Origin: a virus
IMG/VR virus record: IMGVR_UViG_3300000233_000006
Span: 38,788 to 78,459 of that record
Reading direction: 5' to 3' (one strand)
Length of the DNA stretch: 39,672 nucleotides
Position 1 is the first letter of the stretch. Every line of letters starts with the position of its first letter. This document shows positions 15,805 through 29,672 of the stretch, piece after piece. The notes below the pieces were generated by a model that made no database searches, was not told where the DNA came from, and saw nothing but the letters and a program-made list of their open reading frames with translations. The position numbers and the translations under genes were made by a program.

Positions 15805-16134
15805 TTATAGATAGACTTCAGATAATAATTTACAATGTCGTTCTAGAACATCTTTAATCACTTTAGCTTGAAAATGTTTGAAAGGGTTTTCTCGATACGT
15901 ATAAATAAAGAGTCCTTGGTATTTTGTTGCTTTGCGATGAACCTCCCCTAAGTATAAAAAAATAGGACTTGAGTCGTCACGTATTTCGTTTTCGAAATAA
16001 CTTCGATAATCTTGTTCTTTACGTTTAGATTTTAAACGTATTTTTGTTGGTATTTTTAATAAGGAATGTCGGTCGATATAGAGCTCAAGTAAAGCCTTAG
16101 TTTCACACGTTTCAATATGAATGGGGTACGGCAT
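15805..16134 (-). CDS. Block A, conserved small protein (109 residues)
   Basis: Start ATG 16134 (MPYPIHIE), with GAGGT 7 bases upstream; the longer frame to 16167 translates a poly-T tract and is unlikely. Paralogue of the protein at 18585, more than half identical, with strong blocks: L-L-E-L-x-I-D-R-H-S near the start, K-E-Q-D-Y-R in the middle, D-S-S-x2-F-x-Y-L-G-E and H-R-K-A-T-K-Y, and L-L-S-(E/D)-V-Y-L at the end. The charged conserved core suggests an enzyme or nucleic-acid-binding function. No known family recognised. Last gene of block A, after a hairpin. Confidence 0.72.
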   Translation of the reverse strand: MPYPIHIETCETKALLELYIDRHSLLKIPTKIRLKSKRKEQDYRSYFENEIRDDSSPIFLYLGEVHRKATKYQGLFIYTYRENPFKHFQAKVIKDVLERHCKLLSEVYL

Positions 16135-16169
16135 AATAAACCTCAAGAAAAAAAAAAAGATTACCACAA

Positions 16170-16199
16170 TATCCCAGGTAGCATGTGCTACCTGGGATA
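16170..16199 (-). terminator. Hairpin inside block A
   Basis: 14-bp perfect inverted repeat (16170-16183 with 16186-16199) between the membrane-peptide gene and the 109-residue gene; a 12-T tract follows about 15 bases downstream on the minus strand. Block B has a hairpin of different sequence at the same place, so its position is conserved. Confidence 0.6.
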
Positions 16200-16211
16200 C
16201 GTACGTTTACT

Positions 16212-16337
16212 TTAGTCCTTTTTTTGAGGTTTATCCAATAGCTGAAAACTAATCCAGGTTATAAGAATAACGATTAAGGTGCTGACCGAGATGGCTAACG
16301 CCACGTTTCGACTAATAAAATCTAGAATGGTTAACAT
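16212..16337 (-). CDS. Block A, membrane peptide of 41 residues
   Basis: ATG 16337 with AGGTGA 4 bases upstream; stop TAA at 16212-16214. One hydrophobic segment (residues about 12-33, with V-A-L-A-I-S-V then L-I-V-I-L-I-T-W-I) is followed by a charged tail D-K-P-Q-K-K-D. It starts 3 bases after the stop of the PP-loop gene, so is co-translated with it. Block B carries the same gene behind the same ribosome-binding site. Confidence 0.75.
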   Translation of the reverse strand: MLTILDFISRNVALAISVSTLIVILITWISFQLLDKPQKKD

Positions 16338-16340
16338 AGA

Positions 16341-16904
16341 TCACCTTTTTTGGACGCGCTTCACGCGGTTTAAAATACGTCCTTTCATGATTTTCATGAA
16401 TTTAGGTTCGTAGTCACAAAGACTACTGACGACGTTTTCAAGAAGATCGTCATCAGGCCGATCGTAAAATAATCCGTATACAATGTCATTGTCATGACAG
16501 TAGTCTTCGGACTCTTCACGCTCATTCAATACCCAAGGCATGATATATCGCTCGGTTTTGAACGGAGGGAATGAAGCTAATCCCTTGACCAACTTCCCGA
16601 TATAAAAGCCGATGACCTGGTTTAAATCCATAGGTAAACAAACCGGCTGGTTTTGAGAAGAAATGATTTTTTCATACTCTTCTTGCGTGTCGTAATACGA
16701 TACGCTTATACCCATTTGCAGTTTTTCAGCAAACGTAAGCAAAATTTTTAACCTATCTTCGCTCGATCTATGCGAAGGATTGATAAGCGCGAGAAGCTTA
16801 ACTTTACGCCGCCGTGATAAAAAATCCGCCATGGCTAATGACGACGCGTTGCCGTCAACGAGACAGATGACTTCGTCATCTAATTTATATGCTAAATTTA
16901 ACAT
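16341..16904 (-). CDS. Block A, PP-loop ATPase-like protein with degenerate P-loop
   Basis: 187 residues, ATG 16904 with GGAG 8 bases upstream. The fold resembles the N-type PP-loop ATPases (TilS, ThiI, QueC): a first strand V-I-C-L-V, then D-G-N-A-S-S-L-A-M-A where the family has S-G-G-x-D-S, then a second strand K-L-L-A-L-I-N-P. Near 122 there is P-W-V-L-N-E-R-E-E-S-E-D-Y-C-H-D-N-D-I, similar to the TilS segment before its C-terminal part. Two glycines of the PP-loop are lost, so ATP binding is uncertain. Paralogue of the protein at 19110. A tRNA- or nucleobase-modifying ancestor is likely; the present role is unknown. Confidence 0.55.
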   Translation of the reverse strand: MLNLAYKLDDEVICLVDGNASSLAMADFLSRRRKVKLLALINPSHRSSEDRLKILLTFAEKLQMGISVSYYDTQEEYEKIISSQNQPVCLPMDLNQVIGFYIGKLVKGLASFPPFKTERYIMPWVLNEREESEDYCHDNDIVYGLFYDRPDDDLLENVVSSLCDYEPKFMKIMKGRILNRVKRVQKR

Positions 16905-16909
16905 TTTCT

Positions 16910-17515
16910 TTACTCCAATATGGTGATCGTAAGTTTGTTTGTTTTTAACTTGTACCGGAACGTACTTTCAGATACTTTAAAATGTCTAGCGCACTCACGT
17001 ATAGATTTAAATACGATACCGTTAAACTTAAACGGTTTTTTTACGTATTTTCTAGGTACGTTTTTGATGACGTTATTTTCAATTAGCCATCTTCTGGCGA
17101 ACCGATACGTCATTCCTTTGACCCTTGAAAAATGTTCAACGTTATTATATCGTATACCCCTATAACTAAAGGCGATCCTATCGTAATTATTTTTAAGGGG
17201 GTTTAAAACGGAGTACAAATTATTAAAGACATAATTTGCCACCTCGTTAATACGATCTTCGATTTGAAGTACGTACGTTATCACGGTATTTCTACCGGAC
17301 GTATGTTCTATAACGGTGTCGTCACAGATCTTTAAATCATATTTAAAATCTTTCATGAATTCAACAACGATAAATTTTACCTTATCGTCGTTTTTCAATG
17401 GTTCTAAAATCGGTCTAAACCCTATAGGGATTAAAAACCCACGAGTGATGGGGCCTACTGTTTTCGATAAATAGTCGAAAAGATCTTGACTCATGCCGAT
17501 GTCTAATTTAGACAT
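16910..17515 (-). CDS. Block A, NUMOD-like DNA-binding protein
   Basis: 201 residues, ATG 17515 with GGGAGA upstream. The N-terminal 100 residues are an unassigned alpha/beta domain (G-F-L-I-P-I-G-F-R near 26). Two helix-turn-helix-like modules follow: 118-144 (Y-R-G-I-R-Y-N-N-V-E-H-F-S-R) and 164-191 (F-N-G-I-V-F-K-S-I-R-E-C-A-R-H-F-K-V-S-E). The second has the NUMOD1-type pattern found beside homing endonucleases. No nuclease domain (HNH, GIY-YIG) is visible. First gene of block A, behind an early promoter. Paralogue at 19657 keeps only one module. Confidence 0.65.
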   Translation of the reverse strand: MSKLDIGMSQDLFDYLSKTVGPITRGFLIPIGFRPILEPLKNDDKVKFIVVEFMKDFKYDLKICDDTVIEHTSGRNTVITYVLQIEDRINEVANYVFNNLYSVLNPLKNNYDRIAFSYRGIRYNNVEHFSRVKGMTYRFARRWLIENNVIKNVPRKYVKKPFKFNGIVFKSIRECARHFKVSESTFRYKLKTNKLTITILE

Positions 17516-17574
17516 TTAGTTTCTCCCAGTTGTACGTCAAAATATATGACGAAGGTTAGAGATAATCTATCTCA

Positions 17575-17600
17575 ATAATGTAATATATATCTAATATTTA
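17575..17600 (-). promoter_or_regulatory. phiKZ-type early promoter of block A
   Basis: TATATTAC on the minus strand at 17580-17587, in an AT-rich context (ATATATATTAC), 65 bases before the NUMOD-like gene. It lacks the ATACAGGAC part of the strongest promoters. Confidence 0.65.
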
Positions 17601-17741
17601 CTGGGTATATCGTACCCCTTCATCTGTTTAAAGAGATGGGGATTTATCATGCGGAGCCTGGTAAAAAACGTGTGATGACGATTCACAGCCTACTGTAAGA
17701 TTTATTTCCACGCCCATGTGTTTTAAAACGATAATGTGCAT
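17588..17741. other. Intergenic spacer between glycosyltransferase and block A
   Basis: Non-coding on both strands as far as I can see. No hairpin or further gene was found apart from the promoter at its left edge. Confidence 0.4.
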
Positions 17742-18588
17742 TTACGCACCTATTATTTTATTGAGTTCTTGAATTTTGTTTAGTAGTTTATCTCTACGCG
17801 TTTTAGACAGGTTAAACGAGTATGTTGACATATTGTTTATTCTAAGATACTCGTCTTCAGTTAACGAAGGTCGGAATAAATGACCGGCTCTAAATTTACC
17901 TAAACACTCTTCGACTGACTTGGTCTTATAGTGGTTTAATACAAGACCGTCAAAGTTATCTATGTTAAACTCGGATAATACATTAGGTTTTCCGTTTTGG
18001 TCGACTGTAATAAAACCTTCCTTGAGAGGGAAAAAATGCACAAATTCGGTATATTTATTTATCTTATAACCAAAATCCACTGCGTTTATAAGAACGCACG
18101 ATTTAATGTGCTGGCGCGTATGACCCATGTAATGGCCGTATCTATTAAACCGCAACGTTACAGGTTCCGGGTCATAAGCCTCGTGATTTGAGGTACCGAA
18201 CACGCGTGAATAGAGTGATATCTGACCTACGTTTTGTTTATTGGCGATATCGTTTAGAAGATCGTATTCACAAAAATTCATCTGATTACTATCAATCAAA
18301 AACTCGTCAATGTCGACAAAAAGAACCAAGTCAACCTCGTCATCTGAAGCATGATTTAAGATCCGCTTATATGCGGTATGTTGCGTCCACATCCCTTCTA
18401 CGGTATCCTGTTCTATAAAAAAAAACAAGATTGTTTTTTGAGGCTAAATTTAACCACTGGAGCGTTTCTTCGGTAGCATTGTGTGCTGCAATGTAAAATT
18501 TTGTGAATCCAGCGCACATGTACCAACTAAGCCATTCTGTTAAATATCTATGGCCGTCTTTAACAATTAGCCCTACCGAAATATTCAT
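17742..18588 (-). pseudogene. Glycosyltransferase (GT92/GT2-like), interrupted by a frameshift
   Basis: Two frames together make one protein of about 281 residues. Frame 1 from ATG 18588 gives I-S-V-G-L-I-V-K-D-G-H-R-Y-L-T-E-W-L-S-W-Y, the entry motif of the GT92/Glyco_tranf_2_4 group. Frame 2 continues with H-T-A-Y-K-R-I-L, then L-V-L-F-V-D-I-D-E-F-L (the DxD metal site) and the acceptor half. The frames meet at a run of nine T on the minus strand (A 18417-18425); eight T would restore the frame (V-F-F-I-E-Q). So it may be a slippage-expressed gene, phase-variable, dead, or affected by a sequencing error in the run. Start overlaps the stop of the 108-residue gene (ATGA). It might modify surface sugars or phage DNA; not determinable. 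Confidence 0.7.
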
Positions 18589-18911
18589 AGATAAACATCC
18601 GATAACAATTTCGCGTTTTCTTCAAGGACTGATTTAATGACTTTCAACTGAAAATACTTATATACATTTCCTTTGTCTGAGATCAATACAAGTCCGTTGT
18701 ATTTCGTGGCTTTTCTATGTATTTCACCAAGGTAACAAAAGACGTTACTCGAATCGTAGCTCAACTCGGCCTCAAGCCAAGTCCTATAATCCTGCTCTTT
18801 GTGTTTTGAACGTATTCTTATTTTAGCCGGTATGTTGATCACCGAATGGCGATCGATAACGAGTTCGAGCAGCCCCTTATGGTCGGCCAGTTCAATGTAA
18901 ATAGGGTACAT
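18585..18911 (-). CDS. Block B, conserved small protein (108 residues)
   Basis: ATG 18911 (MYPIYIE). Full-length paralogue of the 109-residue protein at 15805, with the same invariant blocks K-E-Q-D-Y-R, D-S-S and H-R-K-A-T-K-Y, and the same C-terminal S-D-V-Y-L. No strong Shine-Dalgarno is visible. The stop overlaps the glycosyltransferase start, unlike block A, where dcd follows. Confidence 0.72.
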   Translation of the reverse strand: MYPIYIELADHKGLLELVIDRHSVINIPAKIRIRSKHKEQDYRTWLEAELSYDSSNVFCYLGEIHRKATKYNGLVLISDKGNVYKYFQLKVIKSVLEENAKLLSDVYL

Positions 18912-18937
18912 AAAAAACCATGAGATGTATCATAAAA

Positions 18938-18973
18938 TGGAGTGGTAGGCGACATATGTCGCCTACCACTCCA
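18938..18973 (-). terminator. Hairpin inside block B
   Basis: Perfect 36-base palindrome between the membrane-peptide remnant and the 108-residue gene; TTTTA follows on the minus strand. Positional counterpart of the block A hairpin. Confidence 0.6.
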
Positions 18974-18977
18974 GTAT

Positions 18978-19106
18978 TTACTTGTCTTTTGACGCTGTTA
19001 CTTTAAGCGCTATTGCGGCTGCAACGGCTGCAACTACAACAGCCAGAAAAAACCCTAAGAACAGAGCTTCGTTTTACAAGCGTGAAAGCAGGGAGCTCAC
19101 GTCCAT
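18978..19106 (-). pseudogene. Block B, membrane peptide with in-frame TAA
   Basis: ATG 19106 with the same AGGTGATCT leader as block A. The frame reads M-D-V-S-S-L-L-S-R-L, then TAA (19074-19076), then N-E-A-L-F-L-G-F-F-L-A-V-V-V-A-A-V-A-A-A and a charged end K-V-T-A-S-K-D-K before the true stop. Without the TAA it would be a 42-residue homologue of the 41-residue block A peptide. No ATG, GTG or TTG follows the TAA before the membrane segment. Either a nonsense mutation, readthrough, or start at a rare codon. Confidence 0.6.
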
Positions 19107-19109
19107 AGA

Positions 19110-19676
19110 TCACCTATTTTTTGATTTGTTGAGTAGTTTTGAGCGGATACTCTGCTCAAACCCGGGGTTCACCAATGTTAATGTATCGATTGCGTTGTCA
19201 GCCAGCCGGTCGCTTTCGCTGACATCCTCGGCGACAAAATCGATATCGTTTTCCTGGCAATAAGACAGAATATCTTCCTGCGAGTTTAACACCCACGGTT
19301 GCGAGATGTTAAACTTCCTGAGTCGTGGGAGTGCGGGCACTCCGATAGATACCGACCTCACCCAGGTCCTCGTCATATCCTGAAGGTTCGTGGCAAGAAC
19401 CACCTCACCTTGTTCCTCCATAAGGATTCTGAGAGCCTTCTCGCTTGATGGACTAGGGTCCGCAACTAACCGGATATGAACCGCCATGCCGTATTTAGAC
19501 GCAAAAGCGTATATCGTTTTGAGACGTGGTACAGTTCCCTCGTCAGTGGGGTCAAGAATCGAAATAAGGCCAACATTACGGCGCTGAGCCATAAAGTGGG
19601 CCATGGCGAGCGACGCGGCGCAACCGCGGGTGTATACGGTGACATCGTCAGCCGTTTTAAATGCTAATGTCAGCAT
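19110..19676 (-). CDS. Block B, PP-loop ATPase-like protein with degenerate P-loop
   Basis: 188 residues, ATG 19676 with GGAG and seven A before it. Paralogue of the 16341 protein: same M-L-x-L-A-(Y/F)-K start, R-G-C-A-A-S-L-A-M-A at the PP-loop position, and the shared P-W-V-L-N-S-Q-E-D-I-L-S-Y-C-Q-E-N-D-I passage near 129. The PP-loop Ser-Gly-Gly is lost here too, in a different way. The gene is GC-richer than block A. Overlaps the end of the NUMOD-like gene by 20 bases. Confidence 0.55.
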   Translation of the reverse strand: MLTLAFKTADDVTVYTRGCAASLAMAHFMAQRRNVGLISILDPTDEGTVPRLKTIYAFASKYGMAVHIRLVADPSPSSEKALRILMEEQGEVVLATNLQDMTRTWVRSVSIGVPALPRLRKFNISQPWVLNSQEDILSYCQENDIDFVAEDVSESDRLADNAIDTLTLVNPGFEQSIRSKLLNKSKNR

Positions 19677-20136
19677 TTTTTTTCTCCGATTGTTTTGGTG
19701 GGCGTTTCACAGACACGGCTGTGTCGTTGAGCCATTTTTTTGCTGTACCGCGACCTATACCACGGGCACGTACGTAGTGGTCGAACGACTCAAATACCTG
19801 CCCCTTATAGACTATGTTAACATCAGGACGCCGACCATTAATCGGCGTGAGACAGCCTAAAAGGATACTCCATACGTGGGTTACGATCTCCTTCCGTCGT
19901 TTTTTCTCACTGAGTTCTTGTACATAGGCGTACTTTAATTCCTTCTTGGTGCTTACCCTTTTAGAGGATGTCACTTTTAAGGCAAACCGATAATTGTCAT
20001 CGATGGCGACTATCACGTACGTTTTTTTATCCTCATTGAGGATGCCTGTTTTTGGCATAGACCGAAAACCTATTGGGTACAACCCCCCTATAACTATGGG
20101 GGTGAGTGTTTTTTCGATGTAATGTACATCATTCAT
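19657..20136 (-). CDS. Block B, NUMOD-like DNA-binding protein, one module
   Basis: I place the start at ATG 20136 (MNDVHYIEKT), preceded by GGAG at 8 bases. This removes 20 residues of a longer frame whose first codon would lie 13 bases from the promoter-like motif, and it fits the block A homologue (P-I-x-I-G-G-L-Y-P-I-G-F-R against G-F-L-I-P-I-G-F-R). 159 residues: N-terminal domain, then one NUMOD-like module at 109-137 (V-Y-K-G-Q-V-F-E-S-F-D-H-Y). The second module of the block A copy is absent; a basic tail K-R-P-P-K-Q-S-E-K-K takes its place. Confidence 0.65.
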   Translation of the reverse strand: MNDVHYIEKTLTPIVIGGLYPIGFRSMPKTGILNEDKKTYVIVAIDDNYRFALKVTSSKRVSTKKELKYAYVQELSEKKRRKEIVTHVWSILLGCLTPINGRRPDVNIVYKGQVFESFDHYVRARGIGRGTAKKWLNDTAVSVKRPPKQSEKKNADISI

Positions 20137-20204: not shown

Positions 20205-20222
20205 GTATGTAATATGGGTTTA
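20205..20222 (-). promoter_or_regulatory. Possible early promoter of block B
   Basis: CATATTAC on the minus strand at 20209-20216, one base off the TATATTAC octamer, about 73 bases before the chosen start of the NUMOD-like gene and in the same relative position as the promoter of block A. Confidence 0.45.
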
Positions 20223-25083: not shown

Positions 25084-26415
25084 TCAGTGAGTGTAACGGT
25101 AACCGTCTGTTCTTGAACAGACGGTGATCGGAGAGGATGACGGGATGTCGATCGACATCCCACCGTATGTCACGCGTAGAGACCTTGTCGTATGTACGAG
25201 TGAAGTCACGCGTGACGTGTCCGTGACACCTTGACGACGACCTGACATCAAGGTGTAAGTGACGATGTCACCGGTACGGACACCGCGAAGGGTGGATGAA
25301 CCCTTCGGACGTGTTGAGGGGAAGCCGTAACTGTCGGTGCGCACCATGCGTCTCGACACGTGACCGACGGCATGGGCGTTAAGGGGCTTAAGGGTTGGGT
25401 CGATAGGGCAAGAGGGTGGCGTGTCGACACAGGCGGCATCAACCCAGTGCTCCTTAGGAGCACGTAACGACGTTCGGTTCATGTGTGTCACCCAGGAGGG
25501 TGTACGCACTATCGGAACGAACGTCGAGAGCGATTTAAACAACGCGTTGTTGGACGAGTTGACAGCGGCGGCATCGCGTAGCGTGCGACGCTGTGCACGC
25601 ACCTTGGGTGCATACTGACGGATCGCGGTATGGTGTGCGTTGGAAGTCGTGAGCGACGCGATCCAAGCCTCTATCGATAAATTCGATTTAGACTGGTTGC
25701 ATGTGTAACATGCAAGCGTGGCATTATCGAGGCTGTCGGAGCCGTGGCGCGAGCGAGGGACGATATGATCCCAGGTGAGACGTTTATCGCCGCTCGCACC
25801 ATGACAGTATTGACAGGTGTAGTTATGTGCCATGCGTAGGTAACTACGCATCTCCATCCCGAAGGTGTCTGAGGTGCCTGGAGTGACGTGGCGTGTTTCT
25901 GGATGTTTAAGTCTTTGGAGGTCGAACTGAACATGTTCAGTGAAGACCATATTGAGTGGGGTGAAGCGCTGAAGTCGCTTCACCCACGTCACGATGTGAT
26001 CCACCCTCGACTGCACCGATGGTGGGAGCCAACCGTCACGACGAGTGCGATTAAGGAAGCGACGAGCGCGATAGCGCGTGTGACGCGCGCGACGGTTGCT
26101 ACGATAGCTACGTCGCTGAAGGAGTGCTTTTTGAATCGCGTTACCTCGATGATGGAGATGAAGCGCGTAGATGACTCGCGACCCGTTCTTGCCGTGGATA
26201 ACCAGGGCAAGTCCGGTCGTCTTGGAGCCAGGATCGAGTTTAACATCTAGCGGCTGAATACCGCCACCGACTCGATCTTTCAAGACGATCGTGAACGGTG
26301 TGCGACGTAAGACCGCAGCACGTTGCTTGGTAAGCAACTCACGTGCACGCCCTGGCGTGCACGGCATGAGTGGTTGACGCTTCGCATCAACCACGAAGAC
26401 GTAGTTCTGAGACAT
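25084..26415 (-). CDS. iscB: IscB RNA-guided endonuclease (OMEGA family)
   Basis: 443 residues. All diagnostic parts are in order: PLMP domain start (P-L-M-P at 15-18, then P-G-R-A-R-E-L-L), RuvC-I with the catalytic Asp in D-P-G-S-K-T (61-66), an Arg-rich bridge helix (about 100-125), RuvC-II with Glu in V-F-T-E-H-V (157-162), a complete HNH domain with two Cys pairs (C201/C204 and C236/C239) and W-D-H-I-V-P with His 217, and RuvC-III H-W-V-D-A-A-C-V (323-330). Catalytic residues are intact, so it should cut DNA under guidance of the omega-RNA encoded upstream. IscB is the ancestor group of Cas9. No SD is obvious; MSQNYVFVVDAKRQPL is the usual family start. No accessory genes. Confidence 0.93.
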   Translation of the reverse strand: MSQNYVFVVDAKRQPLMPCTPGRARELLTKQRAAVLRRTPFTIVLKDRVGGGIQPLDVKLDPGSKTTGLALVIHGKNGSRVIYALHLHHRGNAIQKALLQRRSYRSNRRARHTRYRARRFLNRTRRDGWLPPSVQSRVDHIVTWVKRLQRFTPLNMVFTEHVQFDLQRLKHPETRHVTPGTSDTFGMEMRSYLRMAHNYTCQYCHGASGDKRLTWDHIVPRSRHGSDSLDNATLACYTCNQSKSNLSIEAWIASLTTSNAHHTAIRQYAPKVRAQRRTLRDAAAVNSSNNALFKSLSTFVPIVRTPSWVTHMNRTSLRAPKEHWVDAACVDTPPSCPIDPTLKPLNAHAVGHVSRRMVRTDSYGFPSTRPKGSSTLRGVRTGDIVTYTLMSGRRQGVTDTSRVTSLVHTTRSLRVTYGGMSIDIPSSSPITVCSRTDGYRYTH

Positions 26416-26650
26416 AAAGAGGTTCCTATAAAAACACTGTGAGTTACCTCACACACTTGCGTGTAAAGTGGTCCTCGACAAGGTTCAGCAGGCTTGTCGT
26501 GTGTGTCACACCGAGACGTTGAGCTCATCTCTTTTAATGACACACGACAGAGCGGAAGACTGGATCAGACATCCTCCGGTGTCATGACCTGCTGAACGTA
26601 GTGCATTTGCGTGCACTGAGTCTGGTCATCAAGGATCCGTAAGGATCCAT
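26416..26650 (-). ncRNA. Omega-RNA candidate of iscB
   Basis: 235 non-coding bases directly upstream of iscB on its strand, the normal place of an omega-RNA. Stem 26476-26482 with 26493-26499 (7 bp) displays a ten-base loop, 26483-26492, exactly complementary to 26588-26597: a pseudoknot. Further helices: 26563-26570 with 26620-26627 (one G-T), 26600-26605 with 26612-26617, and TGTCGTGTGTGTCA near 26496 with TGACACACGACA near 26538. In IscB systems the guide lies at the 5' end of the RNA, here at about 26,650 or just beyond, in the flanking phage sequence. Confidence 0.7.
26643..26650. repeat. Direct repeat GGATCCAT, right end of the IscB element
   Basis: Second copy of the octamer at 25005-25012; the phage hairpin begins immediately to its right. 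A related GGATCC lies 11 bases inward. Confidence 0.5.
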
Positions 26651-26688
26651 CTATCAGTCAGGGTCAGGGAAGACCCTGACTGATAGAT
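26649..26688 (-). terminator. Hairpin at the end of the 26.7-kb gene
   Basis: 17-bp perfect inverted repeat (26649-26665 with 26672-26688, loop of 6) overlapping the stop codon. No T-run; followed by ATGGATCC as the hairpin at 23450-23481 is followed by TTTTAAATGGATCC. Probably phage sequence, and the likely source of the omega-RNA guide. Confidence 0.6.
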
Positions 26689-29596: not shown

Positions 29597-29672
29597 TGGT
29601 GGGTCTGCCGAGATTCGAACTCGGAACCCAAGGATTATGAGTCCTCTGCACTAACCGTTGTGCTACAGACCC
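29597..29672 (-). tRNA. tRNA with anticodon CAT (Met or lysidine-type Ile2)
   Basis: 76 bases with encoded CCA. Acceptor GGGTCTG pairs with CAGACCC and the discriminator is A; D-loop GGTTAG, T-arm loop TTCGAAT, anticodon stem GAGGA/TCCTT and loop CTCATAA. G1-C72 rules out a standard initiator tRNA. Anticodon CAT leaves elongator Met and Ile2 (needing lysidine at C34) open. Lies 10 bases after the 99-residue gene, on the same strand, so is probably cut from that transcript. Confidence 0.92.

Follow-up and report, generated by a model that had tools for sequence, protein, structure and literature searches.

A doubled gene block in a phiKZ-like phage

What is the block of four small genes that occurs twice, in strongly diverged form, in the 39,672-nucleotide stretch of viral DNA analysed here (the window), and what might it do for the phage that carries it? 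The window comprises bases 38788-78459 of the 127,910-base IMG/VR virus record IMGVR_UViG_3300000233_000006 (G000), which is a fragment. Our firm result concerns the second gene of the block, for which the evidence is strong that it is a member of the TilS (tRNA-Ile lysidine synthetase) family whose active site has been lost; the mechanism we suggest for the block as a whole is a proposal. By protein similarity, the source record comes from a phiKZ-like (Chimalliviridae-type) phage, a giant bacterial virus. Its terminase shares 37-46% identity with those of Burkholderia phage FLC9 (45.6%), phiPA3, Ea35-70 and their kin, and it encodes a divergent DnaB (divDNAB, E-value 1.5e-115) and a PhuZ-like tubulin (Tubulin, E-value 6.5e-5, below the cut-off).

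Block A (17515-15805) and block B (20136-18585) are paralogous and lie on the minus strand in identical gene order, as described in the initial annotation of this DNA. Between the copies, gene 1 is 26% identical (E-value 7e-18), gene 2 29% (E-value 9e-31) and gene 4, which is better conserved than the rest of the block, 61%; the doubling is real and more than chance. The spacing, described as the same, is only roughly equal, since A1 and A2 are separated by 5 nucleotides while B1 and B2 overlap by 20. A difference in GC content had also been noted correctly: block A (36.4%) lies below and block B (45.4%) above the record mean of 41.6%. Non-synonymous divergence (dN) between A and B amounts to 0.86 for gene 1, 0.83 for gene 2 and 0.31 for gene 4, with synonymous sites saturated or nearly so, which argues that the copies are old and have been maintained by purifying selection. 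No third copy of gene 1, 2 or 4 was found in the 128-kb record.

The four-gene order was absent from every other genome searched (phage records, IMG/VR and GTDB contigs), and the expectation that the unit would be conserved across phages thus failed in each of these collections. Queried directly against the same collections, genes 1, 2 and 4 returned no relatives apart from one TilS gene and a weak match in phage Melnitz, both described below. Rather than the four genes staying together, relatives of gene 2 were found singly, in other contexts and as intact TilS, so the previously suggested "functional unit" rests on two copies in one genome. PADLOC gave no match on the block, and comparison of its proteins with library proteins revealed no similarity outside the TilS kinship of gene 2 and a helix-turn-helix (HTH) in A1.

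Gene 2 belongs to the TilS family and has lost its active site

A2 (187 amino acids; 16341-16904, minus strand) and B2 (188 amino acids; 19110-19676, minus strand) had been described as PP-loop-like, a call that was right in kind and can now be narrowed to a TilS-derived protein. The lead was the single tblastn match of gene 2, a bacterial TilS on MT839512.1 (L007). This GenBank entry, named "Bacteriophage sp.", reads as a bacterial fragment, with DnaB, TilS, phosphoribosyltransferase and FtsH in that order. A two-row A2 profile then matched the TilS of Pseudomonas phage MIJ3 (E-value 1.6e-8), a gene described previously (PMC6892783), and those of two phiKZ-like IMG/VR contigs (E-values 3.8e-7 and 3.5e-6), with a third contig recovered by a combined profile. 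Aligned with hhalign, the gene 2 and intact-TilS profiles match over 179 columns (98.7% probability, E-value 1.8e-16), and B2 reaches short phage TilS proteins by tblastn with E-values down to 4e-12.

The predicted fold is consistent with this assignment. An AlphaFold model of A2, built from an alignment of two rows only (predicted local distance difference test, pLDDT, 69.7), gave its best Foldseek matches to the tRNA thiolases TtuA/NcsA (E-value 1e-8), followed by TilS 2e89 (E-value 2.9e-6, TM 0.68). Unlike TtuA and NcsA, which have about 300 residues, gene 2 encodes 187 and its sequence kinship is to TilS. With bacterial tRNA(Ile2) lysidine synthetase (PDB 2e89, 1wy5, 3a2k and 1ni5), A2 and B2 have the N-type PP-loop domain in common, but neither the catalytic residues nor the C-terminal domains are present in them. 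The latter are missing too from short phage TilS proteins (189-215 amino acids). These short proteins, including MIJ3 gp263, its PA5oct counterpart and those of the phiKZ-like contigs G001, G009 and G021, are the closest in kind, with equal length, predicted fold and full-length homology. They differ from A2 and B2 in retaining SGGxDS along with the remaining catalytic residues, and in standing alone or near a tRNA-CAU gene instead of doubled inside a four-gene block.

The loss of the active site is extensive. The ATP-binding motif SGGxDS, present in 80/80 phage TilS sequences, reads DGNASS in A2 and RGCAAS in B2; the DH/HH histidine is replaced by proline in both; and the HxxxDxxE, RP, D..N and RN..R residues are nearly all replaced, often differently in each copy. 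A six-residue deletion in the DPTN-RN loop is common to both. Thirteen positions, catalytic or conserved, were compared: two survive in A2 and three in B2, against 80 short phage TilS from IMG/VR in which ten positions are kept in 80/80 and the other three in 70-76/80. These 80 loci were found through the patterns SGG..D or AxEWYxM, so those two motifs were partly selected for, while the other positions were not. Motifs new to both copies (SLAMA, PWVLN and YCxxND) are conserved between A2 and B2.

In a phylogenetic tree, A2 and B2 form one clade (support 100/98) on a long stem of 3.74, which suggests that the active site was lost before the duplication. Gene 2 is thus probably an inherited, duplicated pseudoenzyme, as far as sequences can tell. 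The branches are too long for the tree to decide between descent from phage and from bacterial TilS. Block B may be the product of a local duplication or may have been gained separately from another phage; the points common to A and B are the derived features of a dead TilS, the single tree stem and an early-promoter variant at an equal position, but their GC contents fall on opposite sides of the record mean. In the searched literature, from which most subscription journals were absent, phage TilS appears only as annotated genes, in MIJ3 and in Ralstonia phage RsoM2USA (PMC8504454), with no dead copies. A lineage with two dead TilS copies would offer a natural separation of the binding and catalytic roles of this enzyme, and through TilS a gene block that would otherwise be anonymous can be tied to a known pathway.

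Short phage TilS and tRNA-CAU

TilS converts C34 of tRNA-Ile2(CAU) to lysidine, whereupon the tRNA reads AUA. Short intact TilS genes of about 200 codons are widespread in uncultured phages in IMG/VR (loci L136-L215) and often have a tRNA-CAU gene no more than 1.3 kb away. After removal of redundancy, 46 short-TilS loci remained, 17 of which hold any tRNA recognised by ARAGORN; in 12 of these 17 a CAU tRNA lies at most 1.3 kb from TilS, and at locus L152 it ends 16 bases before the gene. CAU tRNAs make up 13/41 of the near tRNAs versus 2/27 of the far ones (Fisher p 0.02). In the phiKZ-like contigs G001 and G009, Rfam detected a CAU tRNA missed by ARAGORN, at a distance from TilS of about 0.9 kb in G001 and 3.8 kb in G009. 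Short TilS and tRNA-CAU therefore likely form, on these genomic grounds, a phage-borne pair for lysidine formation and AUA decoding. The question of whether phages bring AUA decoding of their own is rarely discussed, and TilS beside tRNA-CAU makes it directly testable. Three TilS-bearing phiKZ-like contigs (L131, L132 and L133) also carry group I introns near their tRNA genes, and the dCTP deaminase of a phiKZ-like contig (L113, 7587-8585, minus strand) has an intein-like insert (PF14890, below the cut-off).

The phage studied here has one candidate partner of this type. A tRNA with a CAU anticodon (29597-29672, minus strand), called Met by ARAGORN, is the sole recognised tRNA of the 128-kb record. 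The E. coli matches listed for this tRNA were all to annotated tRNA-Ile (partial, 41 bases, E-value 0.6). In its D and anticodon arms it is similar to the TilS-linked tRNA at locus L137. It is probably tRNA-Ile2, the substrate type of TilS. Within the block, AUA use in genes 1 and 4 is high but at most weakly unusual in a post hoc comparison, since 1.2% of randomly drawn groups of four small genes reach that level.

The remaining genes and the early-promoter motifs

Gene 1 encodes a 201-residue protein in block A (A1; 16910-17515, minus strand) and a homologue of 159 residues in block B (B1; 19657-20136, minus strand). Its N-terminal domain is an orphan, judged by searches of phage records, IMG/VR and GTDB contigs; the Melnitz (Methylophilales phage) match of gene 1 is weak and partial (E-value 0.6). 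The C-terminal end of A1 carries HTH repeats like those in the DNA-binding domain of I-TevI and NUMOD proteins (PF20987, E-value 5.5e-5, 23.4 bits against a cut-off of 27; NUMOD1, E-value 0.061; I-TevI domain 1i3j, E-value 0.019). The previous NUMOD-like label was right in kind for A1, at scores below the cut-off, but does not extend to B1, which has one HTH-like repeat and lacks the second one that matches I-TevI/NUMOD models. Domain searches found no GIY-YIG or HNH nuclease in A1 or B1, in contrast to the homing endonucleases that carry this kind of HTH.

In both blocks, gene 3 encodes a hydrophobic, single-pass membrane peptide about 41 residues long (maximum 19-residue Kyte-Doolittle hydropathy 2.4 and 2.8). 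A3 (41 amino acids; 16212-16337, minus strand) is intact, while the B3 frame (18978-19106, minus strand) contains an in-frame TAA at codon 11 (19074-19076). As stated in the initial annotation, the ribosome-binding sites are alike: in both blocks the stop codon of gene 2 shares bases with the start signal of gene 3, AGGTGATCTATG. A membrane peptide beside TilS in G009 (L111, 1989-2126) was dropped as support, because such a peptide occurs at only one of 80 TilS loci.

Between genes 3 and 4, each block has a perfect hairpin, probably a terminator (16170-16199 in A; 18938-18973 in B, with an 18-bp stem; both minus strand). The equal position reported for it is correct, but such hairpins number 18 in the window, so their presence in both blocks is nothing special. 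Gene 4 encodes orphan proteins of 109 (A4; 15805-16134, minus strand) and 108 residues (B4; 18585-18911, minus strand), with no relatives in phage records, IMG/VR or GTDB contigs. Weak matches to Proteus phage 10 (E-value 0.011) and in G041 and G008 were attributed to chance, being of partial cover and within longer frames. The structure model of gene 4, a prediction proposed in the initial annotation, was unusable (pLDDT 37).

A motif, CTATATTACyTAyrTGA, occurs in some 17 good copies in the record, nearly all on the minus strand. It matches the promoters of phiKZ (TATATTAC) and 201phi2-1 (PMC7058600), and motifs of this kind were shown, for the phages profiled, to act as early promoters that the virion RNA polymerase reads (PMC7598289). 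Upstream of block A, TATATTAC lies 72 nucleotides before A1 (17580-17587, minus strand; position weight matrix score 13.3, rank 20 in the 128-kb record), and upstream of block B, CATATTAC lies 80 nucleotides before B1 (20209-20216, minus strand; score 14.7, rank 19). The matrix was built from 15 other sites, so that neither block site belonged to the training set. Judged by these motifs, both blocks are probably early operons.

A glycosyltransferase-like gene between the blocks (17742-18588, minus strand) is broken in two by a frameshift where nine T follow one another (18417-18425), which may reflect an assembly error, phase variation or decay.

Possible roles of the block

Our preferred reading, which we hold tentatively and at slightly less than an even chance, is that the block is an early phiKZ-like operon in which the dead TilS fold serves as a scaffold that binds tRNA-CAU or host TilS or other translation partners. 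Each block would then be a small early operon whose products are an HTH DNA-binding protein, a TilS-derived pseudoenzyme, a membrane peptide coupled to it and an orphan protein of 109 residues. An ancestor would have carried the usual phage pair of TilS and tRNA-Ile2(CAU), and the lineage would have given up the chemistry and kept the fold for binding, most likely of tRNA-CAU or of host TilS or other translation partners, so as to bias or protect translation early in infection. The membrane peptide may tether the pseudoenzyme, with gene 1 as a possible regulator of the operon; the block would have been duplicated or gained twice, with both copies retained after divergence. A more specific version, in which the early pseudoenzyme pair, tethered to the membrane, captures tRNA-CAU or host TilS and thereby controls AUA decoding or shields the tRNA during takeover, strikes us as unlikely as a whole. 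If true, it would represent phage translation control of a kind absent from the literature searched.

Several observations weigh against the scaffold proposal. The Ile2 identity of the tRNA is assigned only by similarity, and its gene is not adjacent to the blocks but 9.5 kb (block B) and 12 kb (block A) away. AUA accounts for 13.5% of the isoleucine codons of this phage versus 32-36% in three TilS-positive phiKZ-like contigs. The promoter motifs of the blocks are weaker than the strong sites, and about 0.95 such scores per strand are expected in shuffled sequence, so the evidence lies in the placement of both motifs and not in their score. B3 is interrupted, a small membrane peptide flanks TilS in 1/80 other loci, and an intact TilS could lie in the part missing from the 128-kb record.

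The block might instead act at the membrane or on the host, for example in superinfection exclusion or host takeover, with TilS ancestry providing a stable fold and no link to tRNA. The peptide coupled to gene 2 in both copies, the early-type promoter motifs and the near-complete loss of TilS catalytic residues would all fit such a role, which we nevertheless consider somewhat unlikely given the interrupted peptide in copy B and the lack of any similar library protein. That gene 2 is still a PP-loop-type enzyme, with altered nucleotide binding or another substrate, would agree with a PP-loop fold retained in the model and with the constraint on both copies and their common new motifs; the loss or change of SGGxDS, the HxxxDxxE region, D..N and RN..R, often by different replacements in A2 and B2, makes this quite improbable.

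Decay of both blocks into functionless remnants could account for the stop codon in B3 and the frameshifted gene between the blocks. We judge it very improbable, since genes 1, 2 and 4 have stayed open in both copies despite synonymous saturation, gene 4 is still 61% identical, and the start signals and promoter motifs are retained. Finally, pseudoenzymes often regulate active kin, and an intact TilS in the unsequenced part of the genome might make lysidine with the dead copies as its regulatory partners. The record is indeed a fragment of 127,910 bases, but its 128 kb hold no PP-loop gene besides A2 and B2, and we regard this explanation as the least probable of those considered.

Other features of the record

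Elsewhere in the window, an IscB-type protein (25084-26415, minus strand; RRXRR, E-value 1e-61, plus HNH) adjoins a HEARO (omega RNA; 26463-26674, minus strand) in a GC-rich island of about 55%. By its domain and RNA matches, this is an OMEGA element within a phiKZ-like phage. Near-identical, promoter-containing sequences that differ by a mismatch stand at either end of the record (bases about 1-94 and 127850-127910); they may represent a repeat, or else the end of the assembly.

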